39,973 nucleotides of DNA, from the NCBI GenBank assembly GCA_024682995.1, contig JAIKYR010000030.1:1-39973 (forward strand). Direction: 5' to 3'. The stretch is from Bacteroidales bacterium (GTDB lineage: Bacteria; Bacteroidota; Bacteroidia; Bacteroidales; WCHB1-69). The notes under the pieces are model-generated. The model was not told the DNA's origin. It saw nothing but the letters and a program-made list of their open reading frames with translations, and did no database searches. Below, one piece after another: positions 2,028 to 17,180 of the stretch; positions within the stretch are counted from its first letter, which is position 1, and each line of letters begins with the position of its first letter. The position numbers were made by a program, and so were the translations under genes.

Positions 2028-2051
2028 AATTATTTTGTTGTATTGTGTTTA

Positions 2052-2059
2052 CAAAGATA
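2052..2059 (-). promoter_or_regulatory. Putative -7 box (TATCTTTG) for the ATPase gene
   Basis: On the minus strand the sequence TATCTTTG matches the Bacteroidetes -7 consensus TAnnTTTG. It lies about 25 bases upstream of the ATG at 2027. No clear TTG -33 element is found at the usual spacing. This suggests that the ATPase pair can be transcribed separately from the nuclease genes upstream. Confidence 0.4.
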
Positions 2060-2084
2060 TATTTTATTTAACAAATTGTCTTAA

Positions 2085-2957
2085 TTAATACTTCTGCCTC
2101 CCCGGTATCACCCCTCTCACTCCGCCTTTCGGATTCTCCACATCGCCTTTGTAACGAGGTATCAGGTGGATGTGGACGTGTGAAATGCTTTGTCCTGCGG
2201 CTTCGCCTATGTTGATGCCGACATTGAAGCCATCTGGATTGTAACGTTCCGTCAAAATCTTTTTGCAACGGTTCACCATAAGCCATAATGCCCGTTGCTC
2301 GTGAATGGTAAGTTCAAAGTAGTTGGCAACATGGCGTTTGGGAATTATTAGCGTGTGGCCTTTACTCACTGGGTAGCCATCGAAAAAGGCTACGGTAGTA
2401 GCTGTTTCGCTCAACAATTCCACTTTTGGATTCAAGTTGCAGAACGGACAACCTTTGGCAATCTCGTATTTCCTTTTGTAGTCGGTTTTGTTGTAGTGCT
2501 TGTACTCGTAGATTTCGCAATTCTCGTTTGCAAAAACGCTTTTGTTCGGCAATACCACATTGCATTGATATGTGGGTTGCTTGTGCACAAAGTGCGTGCG
2601 GAATCCTTCGCTTTTCAAGTCACGTCTAACTGTAAAATATGCTGTACCTGTGGGCTTTAGCAGTTCTGAAACCGACATCAGCACTTCGGCTTGTTCTTCG
2701 GGTTCAAGAACATTGAGAACATAATTGCAAATTATTGTGTCAAAGCGTTTTGTTGGATATTCGGGACGGTAATAATTGTCGTAACCGATAATATTAAAAC
2801 CTTCTTTTTGCAAATGGTCTGTGTCAAAACCGAATCCACAGCCAAAATCCAAAATATCACCTTTCAGCAAATTGTGTTCTTTGAGCCATCGGGTTGGGAA
2901 CGAAACGGAAGTGCGTTCTTTAGCGGTTAAGTGTGGATTGTTTTTTATTTTTTTCAT
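2085..2957 (-). CDS. Methyltransferase-HIT domain fusion protein
   Basis: This is a 290-residue two-domain protein. The N-terminal half is a class I SAM-dependent methyltransferase with motif I DFGCGFG at 37-43 and an acidic D60 after the second strand. The C-terminal half is a HIT domain. It has a CPFC pair at 170-173, the histidine triad HVHIH at 260-264 (H262 would be the nucleophile that attacks a nucleotide alpha-phosphate), and a GGVRGVIP tail typical of HIT hydrolases. I chose ATG 2957 over the in-frame TTG at 2966 because 2957 gives a perfect ATGA overlap with the stop of the HNH gene (2956-2954). The substrate is unknown. Both domains are recognisable; pairing a nucleotide hydrolase with a methyltransferase in a nuclease operon suggests nucleotide or nucleic-acid modification, which is inference. 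Confidence 0.85.
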   Translation of the reverse strand: MKKIKNNPHLTAKERTSVSFPTRWLKEHNLLKGDILDFGCGFGFDTDHLQKEGFNIIGYDNYYRPEYPTKRFDTIICNYVLNVLEPEEQAEVLMSVSELLKPTGTAYFTVRRDLKSEGFRTHFVHKQPTYQCNVVLPNKSVFANENCEIYEYKHYNKTDYKRKYEIAKGCPFCNLNPKVELLSETATTVAFFDGYPVSKGHTLIIPKRHVANYFELTIHEQRALWLMVNRCKKILTERYNPDGFNVGINIGEAAGQSISHVHIHLIPRYKGDVENPKGGVRGVIPGRQKY

Positions 2958-4006
2958 CTTTTCCAAAATTTATATCCCATATTTTCAGCAATTTGAACCA
3001 TTGGCGAAAAAGTTCTCTTGAAAACATTATAAAAATCAGTTTCAGAGAGATTTACCAAATCAGTAACAGAATCGTGAATGATCAGATAATCTTCCAGAAT
3101 GGAATTGTTCGGATTTTTCTCATACAATGTTGTCAGTGCACGCTGATGGATGTCTGCAAATGGCCGCAAGTATCTGTCTAACAACGGGAGATTGTTGCTT
3201 TTCGATGAATTGATGCTCGGATCGGCTGGAATCAGATTCCACAAAAGATTGTGAGACACAAAGCTCCACGGCACAAAATGGTCGAGGTCGTATTGTTTTG
3301 CAAATAATTGTTTGCCTGTGTAAATGCAGTTTATACTTCCAACATATTCAATGTACGTATCCCAAAACTTATGCTGCTTTGTAAGCGAGTCGCGCAAAAT
3401 CGGTTTTATGAGTTTTGACGGCACATCAGGTACATTGGGGTTGCGTTTTTGAAGAAATAGGGTCAGGTTCCAAAAAGCGAAATCGCGCAGAATTGAGTAG
3501 TGCTCGTTCAGATATTCAATCCAATTGTCGTTGATTAAAATCTCATCGCCGTATATAGCATAAAGACAATTGTTTTCAAAACGTTGTGATTTAGCCACCA
3601 CATCTTCATCGTAGGTGTATTTTATCCACGGCGAGAGGAATCGATATGGCACATTGAGGGTGAAAACTCTTAAAAATTTCTTTGTATTATTTAGATTATC
3701 AAGTAAATATTTTTTAATTTTCTCTTTGTCTGATTCTATTGAAATCTGAAATGCTTTTTGGATTTCAATTGATTTGTCGAACAGCGAATCGGACTTGCCG
3801 AACGAAAGCTTAAAATAATGAATCGGATACCACGATTCAGCCACCATTCCAGCAATGATTTCCCAAAATGAGATTCGGGTTTTACGCTCTTTCACAACGA
3901 TATCCAACAATGCCACAAACCAATAGAACTTGTATGTGGCAGTTGTGTTGCTGAATATTCCTGCAAGGCTGGAAATCTGAAGTTTTGTGTTCTGTGGCAG
4001 GGTCAT
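2954..4006 (-). CDS. HNH endonuclease domain protein
   Basis: This 350-residue protein carries a C-terminal HNH nuclease module. It has C227 in CIYTGKQL (the usual second Cys is T230), the DH pair at 242-243 in YDLDHFVPWS, N257, and a terminal SINSSKSNNLP segment supplying the last N/H position. The N-terminal 200 residues are rich in aromatic residues and resemble no domain I can name; in related proteins such a region recognises the target or a partner. I start it at ATG 4006. A longer frame from a TTG at 4060 would overlap the upstream nuclease gene by 23 bases and cannot be excluded. It sits between a PD-(D/E)XK nuclease and a methyltransferase-HIT gene, overlapping the latter by ATGA. 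Restriction-like DNA cleavage is the likely role. Confidence 0.75.
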   Translation of the reverse strand: MTLPQNTKLQISSLAGIFSNTTATYKFYWFVALLDIVVKERKTRISFWEIIAGMVAESWYPIHYFKLSFGKSDSLFDKSIEIQKAFQISIESDKEKIKKYLLDNLNNTKKFLRVFTLNVPYRFLSPWIKYTYDEDVVAKSQRFENNCLYAIYGDEILINDNWIEYLNEHYSILRDFAFWNLTLFLQKRNPNVPDVPSKLIKPILRDSLTKQHKFWDTYIEYVGSINCIYTGKQLFAKQYDLDHFVPWSFVSHNLLWNLIPADPSINSSKSNNLPLLDRYLRPFADIHQRALTTLYEKNPNNSILEDYLIIHDSVTDLVNLSETDFYNVFKRTFSPMVQIAENMGYKFWKR

Positions 4007-4037
4007 AATGCTATTCTTAATATGTGTCTTACTCTGG

Positions 4038-5168
4038 TCATTGTTGTTCTTCGCTATCAAGTTCTAATTCTATATCTTCCATTTGTGGCAAAGCCGATTC
4101 TACATCCGCAAAAAGTTTTTCCGTTTCGTATTGGGCAATACCAAGAGGTTGCGTTACACCACGCAAGGCGAATTTTGCTTTTGTGTCGCTTTTGGTGCGA
4201 CAAAGCAACAAACCTATTGTTGGATTGTCCTCCGATGTCTTAACATATTCATCCACAGCCGATATGTAAAAGTTCAGTTTGCTGACGAATTCGGGAATGA
4301 ACTCCACTGCTTTAAGCTCAACAACCACATAGCAATGCAGTTTCAGATGATACATCAAAATGTCAAGGTAATAATCATCGCCATCAACTGTCAGATGATA
4401 TTGCCGACCTACGAAAGAAAATCCGCGCCCCATTTCAAGCAGGAAATCCGTAACCCTTTTTGTCAATTCTTTTTCGATGCTACGTTCATTCTGCAATGCG
4501 GCAGAACCAATGAAGTTGAAATTGTAAGGGTCTCTGAATGTGTATTGTGCCAAATCTGATTGAATTGGCGGCAATGTATTTATGAAATTGTTGATGGATT
4601 TTCCTTTGGCGTATATGTAGCCATTGGCGATTTGTGCCAACATAACATCACGACTCCAGCCTTCTTGCTCTGTAGCCAGGATATAAAATGCACGTTCAAC
4701 TATATCCTCAACTTTCGGAATTAGTGATATATGGTGATACCAAGTGATTTGAGTGAGAGGCACTTGAATATAATCTTTGCCTTTTTCTATCATTTTGGCA
4801 AGTGGCACTTGCCAAAATTCAGAATTTTCCAATTTGGCAAGTGGCACTTGCAGAATTGGAAAATCAGGATAGGCTTCAGCAAAACGCTTCATATTTCTCA
4901 AATTTCTATCTGAGAACCCCTTGTCATCGGGAAATGCTGCAACCAAATCTTTCGATAGCTGGGCGATAACTTGTGTCCCCCAGCCTTGTTCTTTCTGTTT
5001 TTTAATGATGTCGGTGCCAATCTTCCAATATAGAGCCAAAAGTTCGGCATTAACGTTGAGCACAGCCTTGTATTTTGCCTGTGCTATCAATGTTACAATA
5101 TCCTGCCGCCAGTTTTCGTAGCCTTCGGGCATAAAACCAGATTTTATTATGTTCTCTATATCCTTCAT
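4038..5168 (-). CDS. DUF1016/YhcG-family PD-(D/E)XK nuclease
   Basis: This 376-residue protein matches the YhcG family: an N-terminal helical DUF1016_N domain (about 15-155, with typical YWKIG and LSKDL stretches) and a C-terminal nuclease domain. The nuclease core shows D269 in YYLDILMYH and the E284-x-K286 pair in VVVELKAVEF. The family is annotated as a putative DNA nuclease and is common in defence islands and next to type I restriction genes. An odd feature is the hexad QVPLAK/QVPLTQ, present three times at 107-140, from a 39-bp tandem duplication in the DNA. The start ATG 5168-5166 overlaps the stop (TGA 5167-5165) of the degraded reading frame upstream, so it was once translationally coupled to it. 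Confidence 0.85.
   Translation of the reverse strand: MKDIENIIKSGFMPEGYENWRQDIVTLIAQAKYKAVLNVNAELLALYWKIGTDIIKKQKEQGWGTQVIAQLSKDLVAAFPDDKGFSDRNLRNMKRFAEAYPDFPILQVPLAKLENSEFWQVPLAKMIEKGKDYIQVPLTQITWYHHISLIPKVEDIVERAFYILATEQEGWSRDVMLAQIANGYIYAKGKSINNFINTLPPIQSDLAQYTFRDPYNFNFIGSAALQNERSIEKELTKRVTDFLLEMGRGFSFVGRQYHLTVDGDDYYLDILMYHLKLHCYVVVELKAVEFIPEFVSKLNFYISAVDEYVKTSEDNPTIGLLLCRTKSDTKAKFALRGVTQPLGIAQYETEKLFADVESALPQMEDIELELDSEEQQ
4794..4851. repeat. 39-bp-period repeat inside the YhcG-like gene
   Basis: A 19-nt block starting TTTGGCAAGTGG occurs identically at 4794-4812 and 4833-4851, with a degraded third copy around 4758. Each block contains the palindrome GGCAAGTG-G-CACTTGCC or nearly so. 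The 39-base period equals 13 codons, so the reading frame is kept and the protein gains copies of QVPLAK. Confidence 0.8.
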
Positions 5169-5634
5169 CGCTTCATTTTCTTATTTAGTATTTCAAGCAG
5201 TGCGCAGATTTCCGCATTGCTGTTGCCCGAAAGTATCGCGCTTATTTTGGCCTCCAACTCCGAAACTCGCTTTTTGTCCTTTTCGAGCAGAATGTATGTC
5301 TTCGTTCTGATGCTTGTTCCGCCATTCGTCACCATATCAAAAGAATAGGCGACATCGCTGTCTGAAAGTGTCTTCTTTGCCAGTGTTTTTTATCAAATAG
5401 GTAATCGGCAATCCAACCAGTTTCCGCATCTTTGTTCAATCCGAAAGCCTTGTACCAATATCTGACAGCGGCAACCATATTCTTGCCCACACCCAAATGG
5501 ACAACTGCTTCAGGTGCATTGAAATCTTTTTCGGCATTTACAAAATCATACCCCTTTTTAAGCCACAACGTTTTGCAGGGAAACGATTCGTGACCGGAAA
5601 AGGTGTATTGTTTTTTATCTACATTTTTTGCCAT
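5165..5634 (-). pseudogene. Broken DUF4007-type gene
   Basis: The frame from ATG 5634 begins MAKNVDKKQYTFSGHESFPC and continues with LWLKKGYDFV, VVHLGVGKNMV and RYWYKAFGL. These are the hallmarks of the DUF4007 N-terminal domain found in phage-defence and phosphorothioation-type operons. After DYLFDKK the frame runs into an unrelated-looking 13-residue tail and stops at 5329. A second frame, 5389-5165, reads KTLAKKTLSDSDVAYSFDMV and on to a lysine-rich end, and its TGA overlaps the ATG of the YhcG gene. Adding one A to the A6 run near 5388-5393 would join the two frames into one protein of about 155 residues. Full DUF4007 proteins are about 300 residues, so an internal deletion is also likely. 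Either a sequencing error or a real frameshift is possible. Confidence 0.65.
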
Positions 5635-6572: not shown

Positions 6573-7010
6573 ATGCTATTGTCCAAAGAAATCGCCGTGT
6601 ATATCAATCTGGCAGCCTGTAGGTTGAAACAGTACACCTCCGCCATGCTGAAACAGTATGACCTGGGCCTCACGCCTGAACAGTTCCTGCTGGTGGACAT
6701 CCTCTGGAACCAGGGCCCGATGTCGCAGCAGAGTCTGGCCAACAACATGCAGAAGGACAAAAACTCCGTCACCAAACTGGTGGATGCACTGGAAAAGAAA
6801 TCCTTTATTGCCCGGCGCAAAAACCCTAATGACAAACGTTCCAATATCATCGTGCTCACCCCCAAAGGCGAGCAGATGAAACAGGAAGCCAAACAGTTCG
6901 GTATCTCCATGCTCGACAAGGTCCTCGCCGGCATCAGCGAGGATGAACTGCGCAACTTCCTGAATACCTTAGATAAGCTGTCGGAGAACATGTCGCAACC
7001 ACTCCCGTAG
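6573..7010 (+). CDS. MarR-family transcriptional regulator
   Basis: This 145-residue protein has the size and order of a MarR winged-helix dimer. N-terminal helices (about 1-35) are followed by a helix-turn-helix that includes LTPEQFLLVDILWNQGPMSQ and the recognition helix around DKNSVTKLVDALEKKSFIAR. The wing contains RRKNPNDKRSNIIVLTPKG, with the conserved D-x-R pattern, and a C-terminal dimerisation helix closes it. Such proteins repress efflux, stress or catabolic genes and release DNA on binding a small ligand. The gene stands alone: the sulfonolipid operon is convergent to it and 670 bases away, so its target is not evident from position. It is intact while the sequence on both sides is decayed. 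Confidence 0.9.
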   Translation: MLLSKEIAVYINLAACRLKQYTSAMLKQYDLGLTPEQFLLVDILWNQGPMSQQSLANNMQKDKNSVTKLVDALEKKSFIARRKNPNDKRSNIIVLTPKGEQMKQEAKQFGISMLDKVLAGISEDELRNFLNTLDKLSENMSQPLP

Positions 7011-7678: not shown

Positions 7679-8962
7679 TTAGAACAACGCGCTCACCTTC
7701 TCGATGATGGTCTCGGATGGCAGGTCCGGCGAGAGGATGAGGTCGGGTTCCTTGAAGACGAAACCCTTGCTCATGGCGGTGAGAGAGCCGCCGCCGGTGC
7801 AGTTAAGCATGATGTATTCCTCCTTCTTCACCACTTCCTCTTTGACGGCTTGCGCCAGCGCGCTCACGGCCACGCAGGCGGCGGGCAACAGGTCGTAGCC
7901 CTCCAGGTTACGGTACTGCATCATCCAATACATGATGTCGTTGTTGTCGGCCAGGAACACGTCGCCGTGGCTTTCCGTCAGCGTGTCGAACAGGCCGCCG
8001 GCAAGGCCATAGGGCGGCTTGCGGTTGGAGAGCACCTTGGCGAGGATGACCTCGGCCTGACGGCGTCCCTCTTCGGCGGAGAGCTCGGGCAGGGCCCTCG
8101 ATTGGGCTTTCCAGGCATCATACATGAGGGTGAAAGGCTTGTTCTGGGCCACATACACGCGCATGTGGTTGTTGCCGAAGCGTCCGTCGGCCTCCAAACG
8201 GCAGGCGTTCTCCCAGGCGGCGATGGCTCCGGTGCCGGAACCTACGGCCTGGAAATAAGCGTCAGGGATGCGCTGCATCTGTTCCACACAGCTCAGCACG
8301 GTGGTGCCCATGCCGTCGCGGCGTGCCACGTTCTTGGCCCCGCCTTCTAAGAAAAAGCGATGGTCTTCCGCCAGCTTCTCGCCAACGGCGATGGCGTCGT
8401 AGTAGTCGTACCCGTGGGGCACGGCCACCAACTTGACGCACTTGTCCAACTTCTTGCTGAACCAGAGGTCGTGGAGGTTGTCATAAGGCACGCACAGCAC
8501 GATGGGGATGTGGTTGTCGGAACACACCTGTGCGAAGGCGCGCGCCGTGTTGCCGGCAGACTGTACCACGAGGATGCGGTTCTCGTTGCGCGGGATGCGG
8601 GCCAGCACCGAGTAGGCCTCCGTCTCCTTGAAGGAGCAGGTGCGCATCTTGGCTCCGATCTTCGGGCACCAGCCGGAGAAGGTGATGTAGAGGTTGTCCA
8701 AACCCAGGAATTTGGCCAGTCCCTTGGACTTGTAGGTGACGGGGGCGCAGGACTTCTTCAGTGTGCGGTTGATGGGCATCCAGTCCGCATAGCGGTAGAT
8801 ACCTTTCAGGTCCTCGCGCGGGGTGAAGAGGATGTTCTTATACATGGCGCGGATCAGCGACGGCTTTTTGCCGTCGGGGTCGCTCAGGGTCCAGCCTTTG
8901 TCTTCAAAGGTATGGCCGTTCTCAACGTTGACGAGAAGGTATTGCGTGGGTTTGAATCTCAT
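7679..8962 (-). CDS. Cysteate synthase (PLP-dependent, threonine-synthase-like)
   Basis: A 427-residue fold-type II PLP enzyme. K112 in CSFKETEAY is the expected Schiff-base lysine, QSAGNTA (134-140) the substrate/asparagine loop, and GSGTGA (241-246) the phosphate-binding loop. Overall it resembles the cysteate synthases first described in methanogens, which evolved from threonine synthase and make L-cysteate and phosphate from O-phospho-L-serine and sulfite. In Bacteroidetes the same activity supplies cysteate for sulfonolipids (capnine, sulfobacin). It is the last gene of a nine-gene minus-strand operon, 36 bases after the Hdr-like membrane gene. The acyltransferase and ketoreductase of the same pathway are at the other end, which strongly supports this call over plain threonine synthase. 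Confidence 0.8.
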   Translation of the reverse strand: MRFKPTQYLLVNVENGHTFEDKGWTLSDPDGKKPSLIRAMYKNILFTPREDLKGIYRYADWMPINRTLKKSCAPVTYKSKGLAKFLGLDNLYITFSGWCPKIGAKMRTCSFKETEAYSVLARIPRNENRILVVQSAGNTARAFAQVCSDNHIPIVLCVPYDNLHDLWFSKKLDKCVKLVAVPHGYDYYDAIAVGEKLAEDHRFFLEGGAKNVARRDGMGTTVLSCVEQMQRIPDAYFQAVGSGTGAIAAWENACRLEADGRFGNNHMRVYVAQNKPFTLMYDAWKAQSRALPELSAEEGRRQAEVILAKVLSNRKPPYGLAGGLFDTLTESHGDVFLADNNDIMYWMMQYRNLEGYDLLPAACVAVSALAQAVKEEVVKKEEYIMLNCTGGGSLTAMSKGFVFKEPDLILSPDLPSETIIEKVSALF

Positions 8963-8998
8963 AATCGTTATGGTTTTTAAGGGTGAATTATGGTTTGG

Positions 8999-10828
8999 TT
9001 ATTGATTTTCTTTCTGGGTGGATGAGGATTGTGCGTCGATGATTTCCGCCAGGTCGCGCACGGGCCGGTCGGAGTAGCGGGCGAAGGTGGCGAGGCAGAG
9101 CGGGCAGGCGGTGGCGATGGCGTCGGCGCGGCTGGTGTAGAGGTTATCCAAGGCGGCGCGTGTCATCTCCTCGCGCTGGGCGAAGCTCAATGTCAGCGAG
9201 CCTAACGAGCCGCCGCAGCAAATGCTCTCCTCACGGTTCTTTTCGGCCTCCGCAATGCTGGCCGACTTGCCGATGAGCTTTCGTGGCTCGTCGTAGATGC
9301 CGCATCCGCGCCCCAACTCGCAGGGATCGTGGAACACATAGCACAGGTCGCTCTTCTCCAGACGGATCTTGTCTTGTTGCACCAACTCGCTGAAATAGTG
9401 ACTGTAATGGACCACGCGAATGCCCGGAAGGTGGTATTCTTCCGTGAACATCTTGTAGCAGATGGGGCAGCTCACCAGCAGGGTGTCGGCACCGCTGCCC
9501 AATATGATTTCCTCGTTTTTGTGCATCAGCTCTTTGGCCGCTTCGGCACGCCCGGCGGTCAGCAGCGGCCGTCCGCAGCAGAGGCCGCCGTCGCGGTCCA
9601 TCCACACGTAGTCCACGCCCGCTTTCTTGAGGATGGATTCCACGCTCTGTCCGATGGCGGGGGTGAGCTGGCTCATGCAGCCGCTGAAATAGAGCACCTT
9701 GCCATGGCTGGCGGTTTCGGTCAGGGGCTGTGTGTCGATGTTCGAGTAGTCGGGGGAGAGGTTGTAATGGCGGCGCGAGCGTTCCATGATGCGCAGTTGA
9801 GGGCCTTCTACTTGCACTTGGCACACGGTGTGGCATTTGCCACAGAGGAGGCATTTGTCGGAGATCTCCTCAATGCGTTTCTCGTTGCCGCGGCGCATCT
9901 GGCGGGTGAGATAGACGGTGCAGTCTTTGAGGTTTCCGCGGTTGACGCTCATCGGGCAGGCATCGATGCATACGCCGCAGTTGGGACAGCTATAGACCTG
10001 CAGCTTGGCGAAACCCTTGCGCGAGTCGCGGATCTTGATGCCGGCGTTGCGCATGGGTATGAGCATCATCTCCGCCGGGATGTGCATGTAGCGCGTGAAG
10101 GGCAGCACGCACATGAAGACGCAGAGGGCGATGGAGTAGGCCCACCAGGTGGGGAGCATGTTGAGGTCGTTGCCGAGGAACTGGCGGAAGATCCAGTTGG
10201 CGGGGATGGTCAGGAAGGAGCCGCCGCTGATGTGGGCGGTGAAGCTCTCGGCCAGCAGTCGCAGCGGGAAGATGGCCCAAAGGGCATAGAGGCCGATCTG
10301 GTTCAGCAGGGAGGGCCGTGCCGTGCGCCTCATGCCGAAGAAGCGGGAGTGTACCCGCTTGATCATGGCTAACACGATGCCGCTGAGGATTATCAGCAGG
10401 AAAAAGTCCATCAGGAACATCAACAGAGAACCTTGTATGGTCATATCCGGCCCTTCCGCCACGAAGTAATTGAAGAAGATGGGGTAGTAGAACATGTGGA
10501 TGCGGTTGGGCACGAAGAGGAATACTTCGATGTGGCCAAGCAGGATAATCATAAACCATCCGAAGGCGATGCTGGAGTGCATATAGCCCAAAAGCTTGTT
10601 GCGTTTCCAGAGTTTGACGTGGATGAGGCAGTCGCGGAAGATTTCCCATACGTTCTTCACGATTATCTTGGGGTTGATGAGGGAGAGCAGGAATTTACGA
10701 ACATCCTGCTTGGGGAGCTGCCACAGGATCCGCACTATCCCGAAAAGGCAGTAGGAGAGTACGAAGATCATGCCGAAGAGGAAGGGCAGCACGAACGGGT
10801 GAAAGCCGGAAGGTATTCTATCGATCAT
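8999..10828 (-). CDS. Membrane-bound HdrD/DsrMK-like iron-sulfur reductase subunit
   Basis: A 609-residue fusion. About five membrane helices (12-35, 84-106, 134-157, 178-198, 228-248) form an N-terminal NarI/DsrM-like anchor. Two [4Fe-4S] motifs follow (C281, C284, C287, C291; C326, C329, C332, C336). Two CCG domains then follow: C384, C417-C418, C454/C457, and C503, C537-C538, C575/C578. CCG domains of HdrB/HdrD bind noncubane [4Fe-4S] clusters that handle disulfide or bound-sulfur chemistry. Both domains have a full cysteine set, so the site should be active. The anchor suggests exchange of electrons with the quinone pool. Heme-ligand histidines may lie in the anchor (H84, H99) but I cannot be sure. 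The gene overlaps the small HdrC gene by 11 bases. Confidence 0.8.
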   Translation of the reverse strand: MIDRIPSGFHPFVLPFLFGMIFVLSYCLFGIVRILWQLPKQDVRKFLLSLINPKIIVKNVWEIFRDCLIHVKLWKRNKLLGYMHSSIAFGWFMIILLGHIEVFLFVPNRIHMFYYPIFFNYFVAEGPDMTIQGSLLMFLMDFFLLIILSGIVLAMIKRVHSRFFGMRRTARPSLLNQIGLYALWAIFPLRLLAESFTAHISGGSFLTIPANWIFRQFLGNDLNMLPTWWAYSIALCVFMCVLPFTRYMHIPAEMMLIPMRNAGIKIRDSRKGFAKLQVYSCPNCGVCIDACPMSVNRGNLKDCTVYLTRQMRRGNEKRIEEISDKCLLCGKCHTVCQVQVEGPQLRIMERSRRHYNLSPDYSNIDTQPLTETASHGKVLYFSGCMSQLTPAIGQSVESILKKAGVDYVWMDRDGGLCCGRPLLTAGRAEAAKELMHKNEEIILGSGADTLLVSCPICYKMFTEEYHLPGIRVVHYSHYFSELVQQDKIRLEKSDLCYVFHDPCELGRGCGIYDEPRKLIGKSASIAEAEKNREESICCGGSLGSLTLSFAQREEMTRAALDNLYTSRADAIATACPLCLATFARYSDRPVRDLAEIIDAQSSSTQKENQ

Positions 10829-11138
10829 AAATTCTGTAAAGGGTCAAAATGAGGTGACGGGTGTTGATGGCGCGGGGGCACACCATGGTGCATTTGCCGC
10901 TGAGCATACAGTTGGATAACATGGGGCGCACATCCTGGTCGCGCTGGAGGGCGAGGATGACCTTGCGGAGGCTCATGCCGCTGAAGGATGCGGCGGTGCA
11001 GCTCGCACTGCAAGAACCGCAGCTCATGCAGATGCGGGCGTCCGGCTCCATGTCGCAGAGCTTCTTGTAGAGGGTGGTGTCCACCGTGTCGAGGTTGATG
11101 GTGGAGCTTTTGCTGAGAGAGAATCCGAAATCCATCAT
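10818..11138 (-). CDS. Small HdrC-like 4Fe-4S protein
   Basis: A 106-residue two-cluster ferredoxin-type subunit like HdrC. The first motif is complete (C37, C40, C43, C47). The second reads C77-x2-S80-x2-C83-x3-C87-P: the usual second cysteine is a serine, so this cluster may be 3Fe-4S or altered in potential. I take ATG 11138, which overlaps the stop of the HdrA-like gene (TGA 11137-11135); a second ATG follows at once at 11135. A longer frame from 11222 would lie inside the HdrA-like gene and is rejected. HdrC subunits pass electrons between flavin HdrA and the CCG subunit, here the membrane protein encoded next. Confidence 0.8.
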   Translation of the reverse strand: MMDFGFSLSKSSTINLDTVDTTLYKKLCDMEPDARICMSCGSCSASCTAASFSGMSLRKVILALQRDQDVRPMLSNCMLSGKCTMVCPRAINTRHLILTLYRIYDR

Positions 11139-12148
11139 GCCTGTGTCAGATAATGGTGAATACTGAGCACGGCGGCGCGGGCCTCGGCCACGGTCTCCGG
11201 CACGGTCTTGGTGCCCGTGCACGCGCCGGCGTAGAAGATGCCCGGTCGGTTCGACTCCATGATGGTATAGACGTTGTCCTTGCTTTTGAGAAAGCCGTCG
11301 TCGTCGATGTTGAGGCCAATCATCTCAGCCAGCTCGTTCGTGCGCGGGTTGCACACCATGCCCGACATGAGCACGAGCAAGTCGAGGGTGACCTTCAACG
11401 GCTTGCCGGTGAGCGTGTCCTCCGCTTTCACCTGCACGCGGTTGTCAATGGTCTCGCCCACCTCCGACACGCGGCCACGGATGAAGTGCACGCCGAAGTC
11501 GCGCTGCGCGTTGATGTAGAAGTCTTCGTATTTCTTGCCGAACAGACGCAGGTCCATGTAGAAGCAATAGACCTCTGTCTCGGGGAATATCTCCTTGATT
11601 TCGATGGCCTGCTTGATGGCGGTTGTGCAGCACACCTTGGAGCATTGGCTGTTGCCGGCCTTCAGGTCGCGCGAGCCCACGCAATGCACGAAGCCCACCG
11701 CTTTGGGGTGCTCGGGGATGCGGGCGTCGGCACGCTTGTTGAACCAGGCTTCCAGATCAGCGTTGGTGATGACCCGGTCATACACGCCGTAGCCGTATTC
11801 CTCCTTCTTGGCGGCATCAAAGAGATGGAAACCACTGGCAACAAGGACGGCTTTGGCCACGATGTTGACACCGTTGTTTAAAATCACATTATAACTGTCT
11901 CCCAATGCGTTGATGGAGTTTACCTTGGTCTCCAGAAACACGTTGGCATCCTTGATCTGGTTGGACAAACCGTCGAGCAGCTCGTGCGAGGAGGTCATGT
12001 CGGGGAACAGCTTGTGCCATTGTGACACATGGCCGCCGAGGTGGTCCTGCTGTTCGATGATGATGGGGTTGTAGCCGAGTACGAGAAGCTGCTTGGCTGC
12101 CTCCATGCCGGCTATGCCGCCACCGATGATTACGATGTTTTCTTTCAT
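11135..12148 (-). CDS. HdrA-like FAD protein (short form)
   Basis: A 337-residue flavoprotein. The FAD Rossmann motif GGGIAG begins at residue 9, with the acidic E32 closing strand two. The HdrA-specific cysteine patch lies at 156-174 (HCVGSRD, then C169, C173-C174). Methanogen HdrA is about 650 residues with extra ferredoxin domains. This one is about half that length, matching the short HdrA of the sHdr complex of sulfur oxidisers. It would be the flavin hub that links an NAD(P)H or other donor/acceptor to the HdrB/C subunits. It follows the HdrB-like gene by four bases and overlaps the small HdrC by ATGA, so the order HdrC-HdrB-HdrA-HdrC-HdrD is translationally coupled. Confidence 0.85.
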   Translation of the reverse strand: MKENIVIIGGGIAGMEAAKQLLVLGYNPIIIEQQDHLGGHVSQWHKLFPDMTSSHELLDGLSNQIKDANVFLETKVNSINALGDSYNVILNNGVNIVAKAVLVASGFHLFDAAKKEEYGYGVYDRVITNADLEAWFNKRADARIPEHPKAVGFVHCVGSRDLKAGNSQCSKVCCTTAIKQAIEIKEIFPETEVYCFYMDLRLFGKKYEDFYINAQRDFGVHFIRGRVSEVGETIDNRVQVKAEDTLTGKPLKVTLDLLVLMSGMVCNPRTNELAEMIGLNIDDDGFLKSKDNVYTIMESNRPGIFYAGACTGTKTVPETVAEARAAVLSIHHYLTQA

Positions 12149-12152
12149 AATG

Positions 12153-13223
12153 CTAACAACATTTTATAGATTTAGGAAGCTCAGGACGCATAATATCTTC
12201 TTTGTTCATGCCTAAATACTTGGCTTTCGGGTCGTATTCCACGCCGATTTTGTCTAAGAAAGGTTCCACAGCCACCTGGTGCAGTTGCAGACCGAGGTCC
12301 CAGGGATCGTAGCCGAGGATGATGCCGGCCATTTCCTCGTAGGTGAATACGGGAATGCCGAAGCCGTCCTTGCCGTAGGTCTTGCCTGTCTGCTCGGCGA
12401 TGACGTACTGCCAACGGTCGAGGAAGTAGGGGCATCCGGGACAGTTGGTGATGATGGCGTCGGGATGGAAGGGCTCCATGGATTCGAATTTCTTGTGGGT
12501 GTTGGAGACGCTGTAGCCCCGGTTGGCCTTCACGTGGTATTGGCGGAAACCGTAGCCGCAGCAGTGGCGCCGCTCAGGGTAGTCCACCACCTGTCCGCCC
12601 CAGCTCTCTACCATGCCGGCCAGCACATAGGGGTATTCTGCACCGCCCACGCCCTTGCTGGGGAACATCTTCGCATAATGGCAGCCGATGTGCTCCACAA
12701 TCTTCAGAGGCTCGCCGGTCTCCTTGTTGACGAGATGATGTTTGGCCTTGGCGGCAATGGCATTACGCCAATGATAGATGAGGTCGCTGGTGTGCGCCAG
12801 ATACTTGGGCTTTTTGAACTCCCGTTTGCAGGCTTTCCACAGGTTCTCGCGGATCTTGGCCTCCAGCTCGGGAAACTCGTGCCATGTCTCTAAAATTTCG
12901 CAGTAGTTGCCGAAGGAGGTGATGCAGCTGGGCACGTAGTTCTCGTAGCCGGCCTCCGTCATCAGGGCGAACTGCCGCGCCACGATGGTCATGACTGTCT
13001 CCTGGGGAATGGTGTCGCAGTGGTAGGCGATGCCCCCGCAGGTGGTGTGATGAGGAGTCTCATAGAGGTCCTTCCCCAACACTTTTTGCGTGATTTCCGT
13101 GAACATCTTCTCACTGGCGGGGAAGAAATTCTGCCGGATGCAACTGCGTACGTAATACCAGTGGTCATCGGGGATTTCCTTCTGGTAGTCGCTCCATATC
13201 TTTTGTTTGCCTTCTGTAATCAT
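12153..13223 (-). CDS. HdrB-like CCG-domain protein
   Basis: A 356-residue soluble subunit. Its second CCG domain is complete: C181, C221-C222 and C261-P-G-C264. The first is degenerate: C62 alone in TCGG, C69, C100 and C108, without a closing CxxC. A single noncubane cluster is therefore likely. HdrB is the catalytic subunit of heterodisulfide reductase, and its homologues in sHdr work on protein-bound sulfur. The protein ends in KCC, an unusual cysteine tail. It lies six bases after the HdrC-like gene and four before the HdrA-like gene. The extended length relative to HdrB (about 300) and the WHEFPELEAKI insertion may serve contact with the operon-specific partners. Confidence 0.8.
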   Translation of the reverse strand: MITEGKQKIWSDYQKEIPDDHWYYVRSCIRQNFFPASEKMFTEITQKVLGKDLYETPHHTTCGGIAYHCDTIPQETVMTIVARQFALMTEAGYENYVPSCITSFGNYCEILETWHEFPELEAKIRENLWKACKREFKKPKYLAHTSDLIYHWRNAIAAKAKHHLVNKETGEPLKIVEHIGCHYAKMFPSKGVGGAEYPYVLAGMVESWGGQVVDYPERRHCCGYGFRQYHVKANRGYSVSNTHKKFESMEPFHPDAIITNCPGCPYFLDRWQYVIAEQTGKTYGKDGFGIPVFTYEEMAGIILGYDPWDLGLQLHQVAVEPFLDKIGVEYDPKAKYLGMNKEDIMRPELPKSIKCC

Positions 13224-13229
13224 AACGGA

Positions 13230-13946
13230 TTAATGGTTAAAATGTTTGTCCGAGCAGTACTCGAATGCCTGTCTTTCGTATTCTTCCATATCCATGCCCA
13301 TCTCTTCGGCCTTGGCTTTGGAGTATTCCTCCACGATGCGGATGCGTTCGGTGCCGCCGGTGACGTCGAAGATGGCCTTGAGTTCGTCCAAGGACTCCTG
13401 CGGGATCTTGCGCAGGATGCCGGGACCATCGCCCATGTAGTTGGCACCCTGACGGGCGAGGCTTTGCTCGAGATGCTCGGTATGCCACTTCCAGACGGGA
13501 CCGGATTCCTTATGGTCTTCCCATTTGAACGATTTGGGATGGACGCAATAGCCGTAGTTGAGGATGTTGCCCGTCATGATGTGGGTGAGGGGCAGCAGCT
13601 GGCGGCCCTTCTCCGATTCGGTGAAGTAGCCGAGGCGTGCGCTGAGGTCGCGCAGGGCGATGATGACGAGGCCGGGCCCGTTCTTGCGCGGGCATCGGGT
13701 GACGCAGCTCATACACTCGCCGCAGTACCAGATGGTGTCGGATTTCAGAAGTTCCTCAATCTGCTGGTCATCGCGCGTCTGTACGATGCTGACGATTTTC
13801 CGGGGATCATATTTGTAAAACTCCGCCGCTGGACATATCGCCGTGCAGGTCCCGCAGTTGATGCACGTGTGGAAACCCTCTTTGAAACGGTAGTCCTTGC
13901 AGAGCTCCTCGTATAGGTTCTTGGGTTTGTTGTCTTTGTTGTTCAT
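13230..13946 (-). CDS. HdrC-like 4Fe-4S subunit
   Basis: A 238-residue protein with two complete [4Fe-4S] motifs: C28, C31, C34, C38-P and C75, C78, C81, C85-P. The C-terminal helical domain is longer than in typical HdrC (about 190 residues). It is followed after six bases by the HdrB-like gene, the normal HdrC-HdrB pairing. Its own ATG directly abuts the stop of the SDR gene (13947). That adjacency ties the redox module to the lipid genes in one transcript. Its role should be electron transfer within the Hdr-like complex. Confidence 0.85.
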   Translation of the reverse strand: MNNKDNKPKNLYEELCKDYRFKEGFHTCINCGTCTAICPAAEFYKYDPRKIVSIVQTRDDQQIEELLKSDTIWYCGECMSCVTRCPRKNGPGLVIIALRDLSARLGYFTESEKGRQLLPLTHIMTGNILNYGYCVHPKSFKWEDHKESGPVWKWHTEHLEQSLARQGANYMGDGPGILRKIPQESLDELKAIFDVTGGTERIRIVEEYSKAKAEEMGMDMEEYERQAFEYCSDKHFNH

Positions 13947-14744
13947 TTACATGGGTTTTATTCGTTTGGCAATACGAGCACACAGGCCTGGGAAAAACCG
14001 TTTTACATATACCATGATGAGTTCCTTGCGTCCCACGAGCACCTCGCGTTTGCCTTTGTCAATGGCCTTCTGGATTATTTTCGCGGCCTGGTCGGGGGGG
14101 AGTCCTCCCCCTTGGCCGGGATCCATCTTGCCGTGGGGCTTGCCGCCCTTGTCTAAGGCGCGGAGCGAGATGTTGGTCCGCACGCGTCCCGGGCACACGA
14201 TGGTCACACGGATGTTCCGATCCGAGTATTCAGCCTGAAGGGTCTCAAAAAACCCGTAGAGGGCATGTTTGGAGGAACAATAGCCGCAGCGCAGCGGGAA
14301 CCCGAATTTTCCGGCGATGGAGGTGGTCACGGCGATGTGGCCGCCACCTGCCTCCAGCATCTTCGGCAGCACGGTCTTGGCGATGGCCACCGGGGCGAAG
14401 TAGTTGATTTCCATAAGCTGGCGTATCATCCCCATGGAGGTGTCCTCCACCGTGGTGCGCTGGCTGATGCCGGCGTTGCAGTATAGGATGTCAATGCGGT
14501 TGAACGCGTTCCAGGCTTCTTCGGCTAGTGCCTCGATGCCGTCCGGTTGCTGCAAGTCGTAGGGCAGGGCATGGACTTTCGCGCCAAGGTCACGGCATTT
14601 GGCCACCACCGGCACCAGCTCTTCCGCTGTCAAGGCGGTTAGGACCAGGGAGGCGTGCTCCGCTGCATAGCGGTATGCACACGCCTCCCCGATACCGGAG
14701 GAAGCCCCTGTAATCCAGATTACTTGTCCGTTTCGATCTGTCAT
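13947..14744 (-). CDS. Short-chain dehydrogenase, probable 3-ketocapnine reductase
   Basis: A 265-residue classical SDR with the TGASSGIG cofactor loop (12-19), NAG (90-92), S142 and the YCSSK catalytic pair (Y155, K159). The C-terminus has a hydrophobic and basic stretch (VYVKRFFPGLCARIAKRIK) that may rest on the membrane, as in 3-ketodihydrosphingosine reductases. It sits 27 bases after the cysteate acyltransferase gene, whose product is a 3-keto sulfonolipid base. Reduction of that ketone by NAD(P)H to capnine is the obvious role. The specific substrate is inferred from context, not from the sequence. Confidence 0.75.
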   Translation of the reverse strand: MTDRNGQVIWITGASSGIGEACAYRYAAEHASLVLTALTAEELVPVVAKCRDLGAKVHALPYDLQQPDGIEALAEEAWNAFNRIDILYCNAGISQRTTVEDTSMGMIRQLMEINYFAPVAIAKTVLPKMLEAGGGHIAVTTSIAGKFGFPLRCGYCSSKHALYGFFETLQAEYSDRNIRVTIVCPGRVRTNISLRALDKGGKPHGKMDPGQGGGLPPDQAAKIIQKAIDKGKREVLVGRKELIMVYVKRFFPGLCARIAKRIKPM

Positions 14745-14771
14745 GATATCGGTTTGTGTTGTATGATGCCG

Positions 14772-16031
14772 TTAAAGAGCCATGTTGGGGATCTCGTGGT
14801 CGTAGTCGCCCTTCGCCAGGCGCTCCTTGATGTCGCGGAAGGCATCCAGGGTGCGGTCCACGTCTTCAATGCTGTGTGCGGCGGTAGGGATGATGCGGAA
14901 GATCAGCATTCCGGGAGGAATGACCGGGTAGGTGACGATGGAGCAGAAGATGTTGTAGTTCTCGCGCAGATCGACGGCGATGTTGGTGGCCTGGTTCACG
15001 CCGCATTTCAGATGCACAGGCGTGACGCATGCCTCCGCCGGCCCGATTTCGTAGCCGAGGTCGCGGAAGCCCTTCTGGAGCCGGCGGGTGACCTCCCACA
15101 GGTGGGCACGACGGGCATCGCCTTCGGCACTGCGGATGATTTCCAGACGTTTCAGACAGCCTTCCACGATGGGCATCGGGAGCGATTTGGCGTACATCTG
15201 CGAACGCATGTTGTATTTCAGATAGTCGATGATGGCCTTCTCCGTGGCGACGAAACCGCCGATGGTAGCCATGGACTTGGCGTAGGCACCGATGTAGATG
15301 TCGATGTCGTCCATCACGCCGAAATGCTCGGAGGTGCCGCGTCCGTTGGGTCCCATCACGCCGAAGCCGTGTGCATCGTCGATGAGGATGCGGAATTTGT
15401 ATTTTTTCTTCAGGGCGGCAATCTGGTCCAGGATACCTAACGCGCCGGTCATGCCGAAGACGCCTTCGGTGATGAGCAGCACCCCACCGCCGTTCTGGTC
15501 AGCCACCTCGGTGGCATGGGCCAACACGCGGTCGCAGTCCTCGATGTTGTTGTGGCGGAATTTGTATTTGTGGCCCAGATGCAGACGGATGCCGTCCAGC
15601 AGGCAGGCGTGTGCCTCCGCGTCATACACGATGACATCGTGGCGGTTTACCAACGAATCAATGGTGGAGAAAATGCCCTGGTAGCCGAAATTGAACTCGA
15701 AGGCGGCCTCTTTGCCCTCGAACTCGGCCAGCTCGCGTTCCAGCTTCTCATGCAAGGCCGTTTGCCCCGTCATCATACGGCTGCCCATCGGGTAGGCCAT
15801 GCCCCAGCGGGCCGCAGCCTCCGCGTCGGTCTTTCTGACCTCCGGATGATTGGCAAGACCCAGATAGTTGTTGAGGCTCCAGCAGAGCACTTCTTTGCCG
15901 TTGAAACGCATGTGCGGACCCAATTCGCCTTCCAGTTTCGGGAAAGTGAAATAACCTTCCGCTTTATCACGGTATTGCCCGATAGGGCCGCCCGTGGATT
16001 GTTTGATTCTTTCGAAAATGTCTTTTTGCAT
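14772..16031 (-). CDS. Cysteate fatty-acyl transferase (alpha-oxoamine synthase)
   Basis: A 419-residue PLP enzyme of the alpha-oxoamine synthase family (KBL, AONS, serine palmitoyltransferase). It has H141 (ring-stacking His), DDAHGFG (218-224) and the PLP lysine K252 in AYAKSMATIGGF, where KBL and AONS have a TFSK-type sequence. The family condenses an acyl thioester with an amino acid and releases CO2. In sulfonolipid-making Bacteroidetes the homologue uses cysteate to give 3-ketocapnine. The neighbours, a cysteate synthase and an SDR, favour cysteate as substrate over serine or glycine. A serine palmitoyltransferase function is the main alternative. It is the second gene of the operon, 23 bases after the VOC gene. 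Confidence 0.8.
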   Translation of the reverse strand: MQKDIFERIKQSTGGPIGQYRDKAEGYFTFPKLEGELGPHMRFNGKEVLCWSLNNYLGLANHPEVRKTDAEAAARWGMAYPMGSRMMTGQTALHEKLERELAEFEGKEAAFEFNFGYQGIFSTIDSLVNRHDVIVYDAEAHACLLDGIRLHLGHKYKFRHNNIEDCDRVLAHATEVADQNGGGVLLITEGVFGMTGALGILDQIAALKKKYKFRILIDDAHGFGVMGPNGRGTSEHFGVMDDIDIYIGAYAKSMATIGGFVATEKAIIDYLKYNMRSQMYAKSLPMPIVEGCLKRLEIIRSAEGDARRAHLWEVTRRLQKGFRDLGYEIGPAEACVTPVHLKCGVNQATNIAVDLRENYNIFCSIVTYPVIPPGMLIFRIIPTAAHSIEDVDRTLDAFRDIKERLAKGDYDHEIPNMAL

Positions 16032-16054
16032 AATGTTATAAATGGGTTTGTTAA

Positions 16055-17140
16055 TTAATTGTCTGATTTGCTGATCTTTTCACGGGATACTAAGCCCATG
16101 GCCCTGAACAGGAATTTGGGTAGGGGCTTTTCCCGTTTCCGGTTGATGAGGTCGATGAACCAACCGAGTTTCTTGATGACGGGAATCTTGTGGGTCTCCA
16201 CAAATTCTATCAGGGTGCCGTCCGGGTCTTCAATGTAGGTGAAGTGGCCGGAGGCATCGCCCATGTCAAAGACCTCGTTGTCGGGACAGCTGTCCACGGT
16301 GAAGGGATGGCCTTTCGAGGCGCAGAACTCACCCAGCTTTTTCATGTTGGTGATGTCGAAGCAGATTTGGATGAACCCCGGGTCACCCCAGTAACGTCCT
16401 TCATAAATCTTCCTTGGTGTGCGGTCCAATGCCTGTACCAGCTCAATGCTGCCTTTCGGCATAATCTCGGACAACGGTCCTTTGGGCTTGGAGGGGTCTT
16501 TGAGCAGCACGCGACGGTACTGTTCGCCGGAGCCGGGCATGATCTGCCAGTCATCGAACCGGCCGGTTTCATCGTAAATCACCTGCTCGTAGCCCAGCAC
16601 TTCACGGTAAAAACGCACGGAAGCATTCATGTCGGTGACCCCGATGACCGCGCCCGCCACACCACCGGTGAGACAACGCTGTTCAATGTATATGTCGGAT
16701 TGCTCCACCACCTGGAGACAATTGCCGTACAGGTCACGAATGTACAGGCAGGGCGTCCCGTCGGGTAGGGCGGATATGGCGCCGCAGTCCGGCCATTTCG
16801 AGGATGCGTATGCATGAAATGCTTTCACGTTGCGGCATTTGATCTTGGCGGCGAAAATGCCAAGGTCACCCACGGCGATGTCAAAGGCCACCGGTACGGG
16901 CGTGCGCTCGCTGTACTGCCAGATCTCCAAACCGCCGCCGCCCTGCAGGTTCACGGCAATGCAGGCATGCCGCTTCTGCGGCTGGTTGCCCGTGTAGGGG
17001 AGCATCCGCTCCGCCACCGTGTCGTCTTCCAAAATCTTGATGTCAATATTGAACATGTCGATGTACCAGTCCCACGACTTCCGCATATCTACGGTTCCTA
17101 CACCAACTTGTTGAATGCCGGAGATAAAAAAATCATTCAT
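16055..17140 (-). CDS. Divergent two-domain VOC family protein
   Basis: A 361-residue protein with two vicinal-oxygen-chelate halves. The first starts GIQQVGVGTVDMRKSWDWY and the second GAVIGVTDMNASVRFYREVLGYE, ending GHFTYIEDPDGTLIEFVE. The layout resembles 4-hydroxyphenylpyruvate dioxygenase. However, the metal-binding histidine at the start of each half is a glutamine (first) or absent (second); only the glutamates in GGLEIWQY and TLIEFVE positions remain. Either the metal site is remade or the protein is a binding protein. It is the first gene of the sulfonolipid/Hdr operon. A role in modifying the lipid base or binding an intermediate is only a guess. Confidence 0.7.
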   Translation of the reverse strand: MNDFFISGIQQVGVGTVDMRKSWDWYIDMFNIDIKILEDDTVAERMLPYTGNQPQKRHACIAVNLQGGGGLEIWQYSERTPVPVAFDIAVGDLGIFAAKIKCRNVKAFHAYASSKWPDCGAISALPDGTPCLYIRDLYGNCLQVVEQSDIYIEQRCLTGGVAGAVIGVTDMNASVRFYREVLGYEQVIYDETGRFDDWQIMPGSGEQYRRVLLKDPSKPKGPLSEIMPKGSIELVQALDRTPRKIYEGRYWGDPGFIQICFDITNMKKLGEFCASKGHPFTVDSCPDNEVFDMGDASGHFTYIEDPDGTLIEFVETHKIPVIKKLGWFIDLINRKREKPLPKFLFRAMGLVSREKISKSDN

Positions 17141-17172: not shown

Positions 17173-17180
17173 CAAAGATA
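17173..17180 (-). promoter_or_regulatory. Putative -7 box of the sulfonolipid/Hdr operon
   Basis: TATCTTTG on the minus strand matches TAnnTTTG and lies 33 bases before the VOC start codon. It is the only good -7 box seen upstream of the nine genes. The internal gaps are at most 36 bases, so a single transcript is likely. Confidence 0.5.

Follow-up and report, generated by a model that had tools for sequence, protein, structure and literature searches.

A row of nine genes in the draft genome of a Bacteroidales bacterium (GCA_024682995.1, lineage WCHB1-69) joins genes for sulfonolipid synthesis to five genes for a redox complex that resembles heterodisulfide reductase (Hdr). The row lies at positions 7,679 to 17,140 of contig JAIKYR010000030.1, whose full 39,973 nucleotides are called the window below. 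The arrangement recurs in relatives and is beyond chance. A sequence-only reading of the window had tied the Hdr genes to sulfonolipid making; the observation is real and wider than that reading saw, with linkage in several families and more than one origin. The best reading, favored here with moderate confidence, is that an anaerobic, membrane-anchored complex similar to the sHdr complex of sulfur oxidizers makes sulfite for sulfonolipids.

All nine frames are open and share one direction, spanning 17140 to 7679 of the minus strand (Table 1). Their order from 5' to 3' is a VOC-fold protein, cysteate fatty acyltransferase (CFAT), an SDR protein, HdrC1, HdrB, a short HdrA, HdrC2, a membrane HdrD and cysteate synthase (CysS), with the parts named from Pfam and NCBIfam profile models. 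The gaps are 23 bases (VOC-CFAT), 27 (CFAT-SDR), 0 (SDR-HdrC1), 6 (HdrC1-HdrB), 4 (HdrB-HdrA) and, the largest, 36 (HdrD-CysS); HdrA and HdrC2 overlap by 4 bases, and HdrC2 and HdrD by 11. The start of HdrC2 is most likely at 11138, giving 106 amino acids, rather than at the GTG at 11222 as read earlier. This close spacing, together with recurrence of the row in relatives, bears out the proposal of a single operon, and the profile and PDB scores agree with its ending in cysteate synthase and having the acyltransferase and SDR near its start.

The lipid genes of the operon are identified with good support, because CysS passes a curated cutoff and CFAT has both the PDB scores and the diagnostic lysine of the acyltransferase SulA. 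CysS scores 417.8 bits with the cysteate synthase model TIGR03844 (cutoff 324.9), and its closest PDB entry is 9k3c, "Cysteate synthase", at 475 bits. CFAT, an alpha-oxoamine synthase, scores 568 bits with 7u7h, which is taken here to be the A. finegoldii SulA of PMC9304779, and 546 bits with 28eh, an entry named cysteate-C-fatty acyltransferase, against 220 bits with the serine palmitoyltransferase 3a2b. Both K252, the pyridoxal phosphate (PLP) lysine, and K282 are invariant in all 41 aligned rows that have those columns. The accessible text of PMC9304779 gives as the mark of SulA a lysine at position 281 in place of the alanine of serine palmitoyltransferase; this position corresponds to K282 of the window's CFAT, as read off the common SQ-YAKSLPMP stretch. 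Cysteate synthase, CFAT and the SDR are likewise common to the window and the sulfonolipid pathway of Alistipes and Chryseobacterium (Cys, CFAT/SulA, KCR).

In the Hdr half, the eight ligand cysteines of HdrC1 and its C134 are invariant in 109 rows. HdrB carries a complete CCG motif (C181/C221-C222/C261-C264) together with a reduced set in its N-terminal half (C28/C62/C100), all invariant in 113 rows, and C156, C169, C173 and C174 of HdrA are invariant in 111. HdrD keeps both CCG motifs and the eight cysteines of two ferredoxin sites at 0.99-1.0, and H70/H84/H249 of its N-terminal part at 1.0 (about 100 rows). That long N-terminal part is matched by no Pfam or NCBIfam model. The best PDB fold match of the predicted HdrD model (mean pLDDT 81) is M. 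smegmatis EtfD (9ojn; TM-score 0.71 by query length, rmsd 7.0, 16% identity), followed by LutA and HdrB of methanogens. HdrD is thus predicted to be of the EtfD type, with a similar overall fold that combines membrane, ferredoxin and CCG parts in a single chain. EtfD-type proteins pass electrons to menaquinone, and EtfD itself serves electron transfer flavoprotein (ETF); the resemblance in fold covers most of the chain, but the window's operon has no EtfAB. The best near-full-length PDB match of HdrA, at 203 bits, is 6tjr, presumably the sHdrA of Hyphomicrobium.

The relationship of HdrA to sHdrA is also seen in trees. The sequence-only reading had suggested comparing HdrA with sHdr, Qmo and methanogen Hdr proteins, and in a tree of 45 rows the short Bacteroidales HdrA proteins and one HdrA from a Picosynechococcus plasmid form one group, sister to the two sHdr-type references included (L202 and L203; L and G numbers denote loci and genomes) with support 99/95, and apart from Qmo-type and long HdrA. 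In grouping with sHdrA, the 337-residue HdrA of the window behaves as expected of sHdr type I. Blocks linked to sulfonolipid genes occupy two places in the HdrA tree, and a single linked clade was rejected (p-AU 0.027, 38 rows); the linkage between Hdr and sulfonolipid genes has at least two origins. The HdrA proteins of three genomes from the window's own genus group with the second linked clade, and no CFAT linkage was seen in those genomes. The HdrA of the window groups with Cryptobacteroides-type blocks, and its HdrB is 59-63% identical to the same-genus copies and 81% identical to that of G401, from another family; by these sequence relationships, the Hdr-CysS block of the window was probably acquired. 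A contaminant contig is an unlikely explanation, given that CFAT is 86% identical to that of two of the three same-genus genomes and a flanking amidase is 58-61% identical to those of all three, versus at most 46% elsewhere (one short piece, 49%). Outside the order, the HdrA relatives found in a sample of 198 genomes of the phylum (E<=1e-20) are all in other classes.

The complex is not an sHdr-LbpA system in the strict sense, though it may well work like sHdr. In the accessible text of PMC11582611, sHdr type I is defined by the syntenic row shdrC1B1A-H-C2B2, and type II as C1B1AHB3 with etfAB in one cluster. Compared with the type I system of Hyphomicrobium denitrificans (shdrC1B1AHC2B2-lbpA), the window has the same C1-B-A-C2-B-type order and a short HdrA without a ferredoxin insert, but it has no H gene between A and C2 and no match to LbpA, its B2 is replaced by an HdrD fused to a membrane domain, and its genes lie beside lipid genes. 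The sHdr-like order of five genes that had been proposed holds for C1-B-A-C2 and for the kinship of HdrA, and fails at the missing H and the replaced B2. There is no ETF gene among the nine, as type II would have. Two type II-like loci with EtfAB (L202, L203) share with the window an HdrC1-B1-A block that has a membrane CCG protein close to it; unlike the window they carry EtfAB, GcvH/LbpA-like and weakly DsrE-like genes, and their HdrA is only 33% identical. A related arrangement lies on a plasmid of Picosynechococcus PCC 7003 (L201), with the order C1-B1-A-C2-B2 and HdrA and HdrB 44% and 41% identical to those of the window, but with a soluble, short B2 and no lipid genes in the stretch; an FAD protein weakly resembling sulfide-quinone reductase (83 bits, cutoff 525) adjoins that block. 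The QmoABC complex does not fit, with the Qmo-type rows L204 and L205 (so called from gene sizes and order) outside the HdrA group, nor does the methanogen-type HdrABC, with its long HdrA of about 650 residues including ferredoxin parts (182.9 bits for the window's protein, cutoff 1400). Two other arrangements were seen in passing: in L112 of G417 (811-5563), two Qmo-type HdrA-like frames and an HdrC-like match directly adjoin an Hdr block, and in L169 of G614 a TusA match adjoins an HdrA/QmoA-like frame.

Conservation of the operon was followed in close relatives by an HdrB scan of named genome contigs, which found at least 574; the best 80 (81-95% identical) were used. CysS directly follows HdrD in 65 of the 70 that have enough downstream DNA (the others being L034, L038, L048, L050 and L085), and CFAT lies upstream in 26 of the 70 with enough upstream DNA. 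All nine genes are present in 22 of the 80, many of whose contigs are short. The nine loci titled Cryptobacteroides that have upstream room all lack CFAT there, and the CFAT genes of G401 and G614 are at other places in the genome, away from the Hdr-CysS block.

Linkage was also examined across the order in 295 evenly drawn genomes, of which 243 reach 90% completeness with no more than 5% contamination; some absences may therefore be gaps. At E-value limits of 1e-40 for HdrB, 1e-90 for CFAT and 1e-15 for adenosine 5'-phosphosulfate (APS) reductase (TIGR02055), the holders number 91 for HdrB, 81 for TIGR03844 CysS, 209 for CFAT and 183 for APS reductase. CysS alone proved a poor marker of the link, with a weak overlap with Hdr (33 shared genomes, p 0.034) and linkage in just three of the 33 (G000, G401 and G614, from two families), and CFAT was used instead. 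CFAT is present in 85 of the 91 Hdr holders versus 124 of the 204 other genomes (p 1e-9). The expected association of Hdr with sulfonolipid producers is thus evident by the CFAT marker and weak by CysS. Furthermore, no more than 10 kb separates an Hdr block from CFAT in at least five genomes from four other families: G473 (L116), G575 (L140), G499 (L117), G434 (L138) and G532 (L139). Random placement would give about 0.5 linked genomes in 84, compared to the five seen (P(>=5) 1.7e-4, or 0.003 by families; G000 was left out, and genomes are not independent). These linkage counts are lower bounds, drawn from the CFAT places listed.

Three of these five loci also carry SDR and VOC genes, and four carry a PLP enzyme that shares just 20-23% identity with CysS of the window. 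Two of these enzymes were tested, and both resemble threonine synthase (183 and 149 bits) more than cysteate synthase (121 and 108 bits), with all scores below cutoff; this threonine-synthase-like enzyme is possibly a second kind of cysteate synthase. It was found near CFAT in L116 (15449-16669), L117 (11411-12640), L140 (5977-7197), L141 (1421-2689) and L142 (6908-8146). Around CysS genes at other places in the order, neither Hdr nor CFAT turned up in 19 stretches of 19 kb each. A second type of CysS, 35-38% identical, occurs in 8 of 394 genomes, all belonging to a single family in a different class of the phylum (L090-L097); within the stretches available (one only 4 kb) these loci match neither Hdr nor CFAT, which argues that the Hdr link is not general to cysteate synthase.

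The case for sulfite as the product comes from the distribution of APS reductase. No match to this enzyme was found in the window's draft genome (88% complete) or in the three same-genus genomes, and a siroheme sulfite reductase domain is missing from all 11 linked or same-genus genomes, including the window's. With no sulfate route found, the sulfite for cysteate would have to come from reduced or imported sulfur. In the order as a whole, 191 of the 209 CFAT genomes have APS reductase, Hdr or both, versus 23 of the 86 others. Where APS reductase is lacking, Hdr is found in 29 of 47 genomes with CFAT versus 2 of 65 without it, and the 29 span 17 families; among genomes with APS reductase the figures are 56 of 162 versus 4 of 21 (p 0.22). 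Stated inversely, APS reductase is missing in 29 of the 85 CFAT holders with Hdr versus 18 of the 124 without (p 0.0012), and, taking the majority state of each family, in 12 of 44 Hdr families versus 3 of 51 (p 0.005). It is missing in 7 of the 8 genomes in which linkage was found (six families, G000 included), versus 22 of the 77 in which it was not. Over all 295 genomes, ignoring CFAT, Hdr and APS reductase show no relation (p 0.37). A siroheme sulfite reductase domain is also lacking in 19 of 22 tested genomes with CFAT, Hdr and APS reductase together, a hint that the sulfite of APS reductase holders goes to lipids as well; in those genomes APS reductase may serve sulfonolipid synthesis rather than sulfide assimilation.

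In the favored model, the five Hdr genes would encode a membrane-anchored relative of the sulfur-oxidizing sHdr complex. Sulfane sulfur, present as a persulfide on a protein or small molecule and originating from sulfide or cysteine, would be oxidized to sulfite without oxygen, and the electrons would pass from HdrA, with its FAD, through HdrC1 and HdrC2 to HdrD, whose membrane part would deliver them to menaquinone. Cysteate synthase would then form cysteate from sulfite and phosphoserine, CFAT would condense cysteate with acyl-ACP, and the SDR would reduce the product to capnine. We infer the direction of the reaction, the persulfide substrate, the sulfite product, the menaquinone acceptor and the assembly of the parts into one complex. 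A stronger version, put forward only tentatively, is that this is a dedicated, lipoate-free, membrane-bound sulfur-oxidizing complex for biosynthesis, in which strict anaerobes without a sulfate route make sulfite from persulfide solely for sulfonolipids, with the electrons going to menaquinone, so that lipid synthesis would be coupled to anaerobic respiration.

Several results weigh against sulfite formation by such a complex, and some of them favor other roles. LbpA is encoded by sHdr type I systems with few exceptions and is called essential (PMC10332631), notably in Hyphomicrobium (PMC6067878, PMC10332631), as far as the accessible parts of these papers go. The LbpA/GcvH query found no match in the window or in 140 loci (112 centered on Hdr and 28 on CysS or CFAT), while the controls L202 and L203 matched. 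DsrE likewise gave no match in the same loci and window, with the sHdr controls matching (rhodaneses were not searched for), and TusA, found in 2 of 11 genomes, is missing in the other nine. The lack of DsrE and lipoate-binding partners at the locus had been correctly read from the sequence. Each of the 11 genomes has one GcvH-like gene outside the Hdr locus, which may be a carrier. As to the earlier proposal that the complex supplies sulfite, the inverse relation with APS reductase speaks for it indirectly, and the departure from a strict sHdr system, with LbpA and sHdrH missing, speaks against. That inverse signal vanishes within families (29 observed, mean 29.1). Moreover, 56 of the 85 genomes with CFAT and Hdr also carry APS reductase, so that Hdr is not simply its replacement, and 18 of the 209 CFAT holders have neither, which implies another sulfite source or incomplete genomes.

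The missing carriers fit the idea that the complex performs a different redox step of sulfonolipid making, on a thiol, disulfide or thiosulfonate intermediate, with no sulfite formed. HdrB and HdrD do carry CCG sites of the kind used for disulfide chemistry, and the CFAT linkage holds even where the putative cysteate-forming enzyme differs. Such a step is nevertheless unlikely: the four-step route from phosphoserine to sulfobacin B, as given in the accessible text of PMC11211663, names no redox enzyme except the ketoreductase, and 124 of the 209 CFAT holders manage without Hdr, 106 of them having APS reductase. A somewhat stronger competitor, though still rather improbable, is that the Hdr genes encode a menaquinone-linked complex of general use, in redox balance or the handling of sulfide, with no direct metabolic link to the neighboring sulfonolipid genes. 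The sequence-only reading would have been undermined if Hdr genes occurred mainly in genomes without cysteate synthase, and taken literally this is the case, since 58 of the 91 Hdr genomes of the order lack TIGR03844 CysS. Linkage is not seen among the CFAT places listed in 77 of the 85 genomes with CFAT and Hdr, and among the neighbors of 27 Hdr loci not selected by linkage, every non-Hdr family is confined to one or two loci, so that the surroundings are uninformative away from the linked families. In the accessible text of PMC11129491, an Hdr system of Black Sea strains is ascribed to sulfide relief, and capnine and heterodisulfide reductase are treated apart. A role unconnected to the lipids is opposed by the repeated, independent linkage seen in the HdrA tree and by the near absence of Hdr (2 of 65) from genomes with neither CFAT nor APS reductase. 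Finally, the complex might consume sulfite with menaquinol as donor and, with cysteate synthase, remove a toxic compound; another sink could help the 11 linked or same-genus genomes that have no siroheme sulfite reductase. This is very unlikely given the kinship of HdrA with the oxidizing sHdr and the role of EtfD-type proteins in feeding menaquinone, and if the complex were a sulfite sink, one would not expect it to be most frequent in genomes that lack APS reductase as a source.

Sulfite formation by a membrane-anchored, sHdr-like complex would give the operon a wider meaning. The sulfonolipids of human gut bacteria have been tied to inflammation and immunity (PMC11211663, accessible text). 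The open-licence papers searched yielded no description of a sulfite source for sulfonolipids in anaerobes and no paper joining the sulfonolipid pathway to Hdr; sulfonolipid and APS reductase do appear together in the accessible part of PMC13232883, in another sense. The operon names a candidate for that source, and the Hdr link offers a reason for the presence of the sulfonolipid pathway in genomes where no sulfate route was found. It suggests that anaerobes which do not have the usual sulfate route produce the sulfite for their lipids themselves. If this is true, Hdr-type sulfur oxidation moves from the energy metabolism of sulfur bacteria to the building of lipids in the gut.

Table 1. Genes and candidate control elements of the operon region (positions in the window)
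Feature	Position	Strand	Basis
VOC-fold protein, 361 aa, first gene	16055..17140	-	Pfam Glyoxalase 42.9 bits
Cysteate fatty acyltransferase (CFAT/SulA), 419 aa	14772..16031	-	PDB matches; K252 and K282
SDR, likely 3-ketocapnine reductase, 265 aa	13947..14744	-	adh_short 171.5 bits; role from place and accessible text of PMC11211663
HdrC1, 238 aa, two [4Fe-4S]	13230..13946	-	Profile models; kept Cys
HdrB (B1 type), 356 aa	12153..13223	-	HdrB models, 124 and 123 bits, below cutoffs
Short HdrA, 337 aa, FAD type, no ferredoxin insert	11135..12148	-	6tjr 203 bits near full length; trees
HdrC2, about 106 aa	10818..11138	-	Fer4_8 and HdrC models, weak
HdrD with N-terminal membrane domain, 609 aa, EtfD-like	8999..10828	-	CCG motifs; predicted fold
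Cysteate synthase, 427 aa, last gene	7679..8962	-	TIGR03844 417.8 bits
MarR-type regulator, convergent, candidate regulator	6573..7010	+	MarR 67.8 bits
Possible promoter element TATCTTTG ahead of operon	17173..17180	-	Read by eye from sequence

The first gene of the row has no assigned step in the known sulfonolipid pathway. Its product has a predicted fold (pLDDT 86) whose PDB neighbors are glyoxalases and dioxygenases; none of the 50 neighbors listed exceeds a TM-score of 0.56 by query length, and neither structure comparison nor sequence searches pointed to a function. This two-part VOC protein recurs beside sulfonolipid genes, with 28 near-full-length copies in the loci of the 80 relatives and another in the Hdr-free locus L151.

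As for control of the operon, the element TATCTTTG is a candidate that may resemble the Bacteroides -7 box, TAnnTTTG. Scans for promoters (10 sites versus 6.8, sd 3.3, in shuffled sequences) and for terminators (5 sites versus 11.4) yielded no site that was used. Of the 80 closest relatives, 11 likewise have the convergent MarR-type gene no more than about 2 kb beyond CysS (L010, L012, L017, L022, L025, L027, L029, L039, L047, L051 and L069), and homologs of it are present in L099, L145 and L151.

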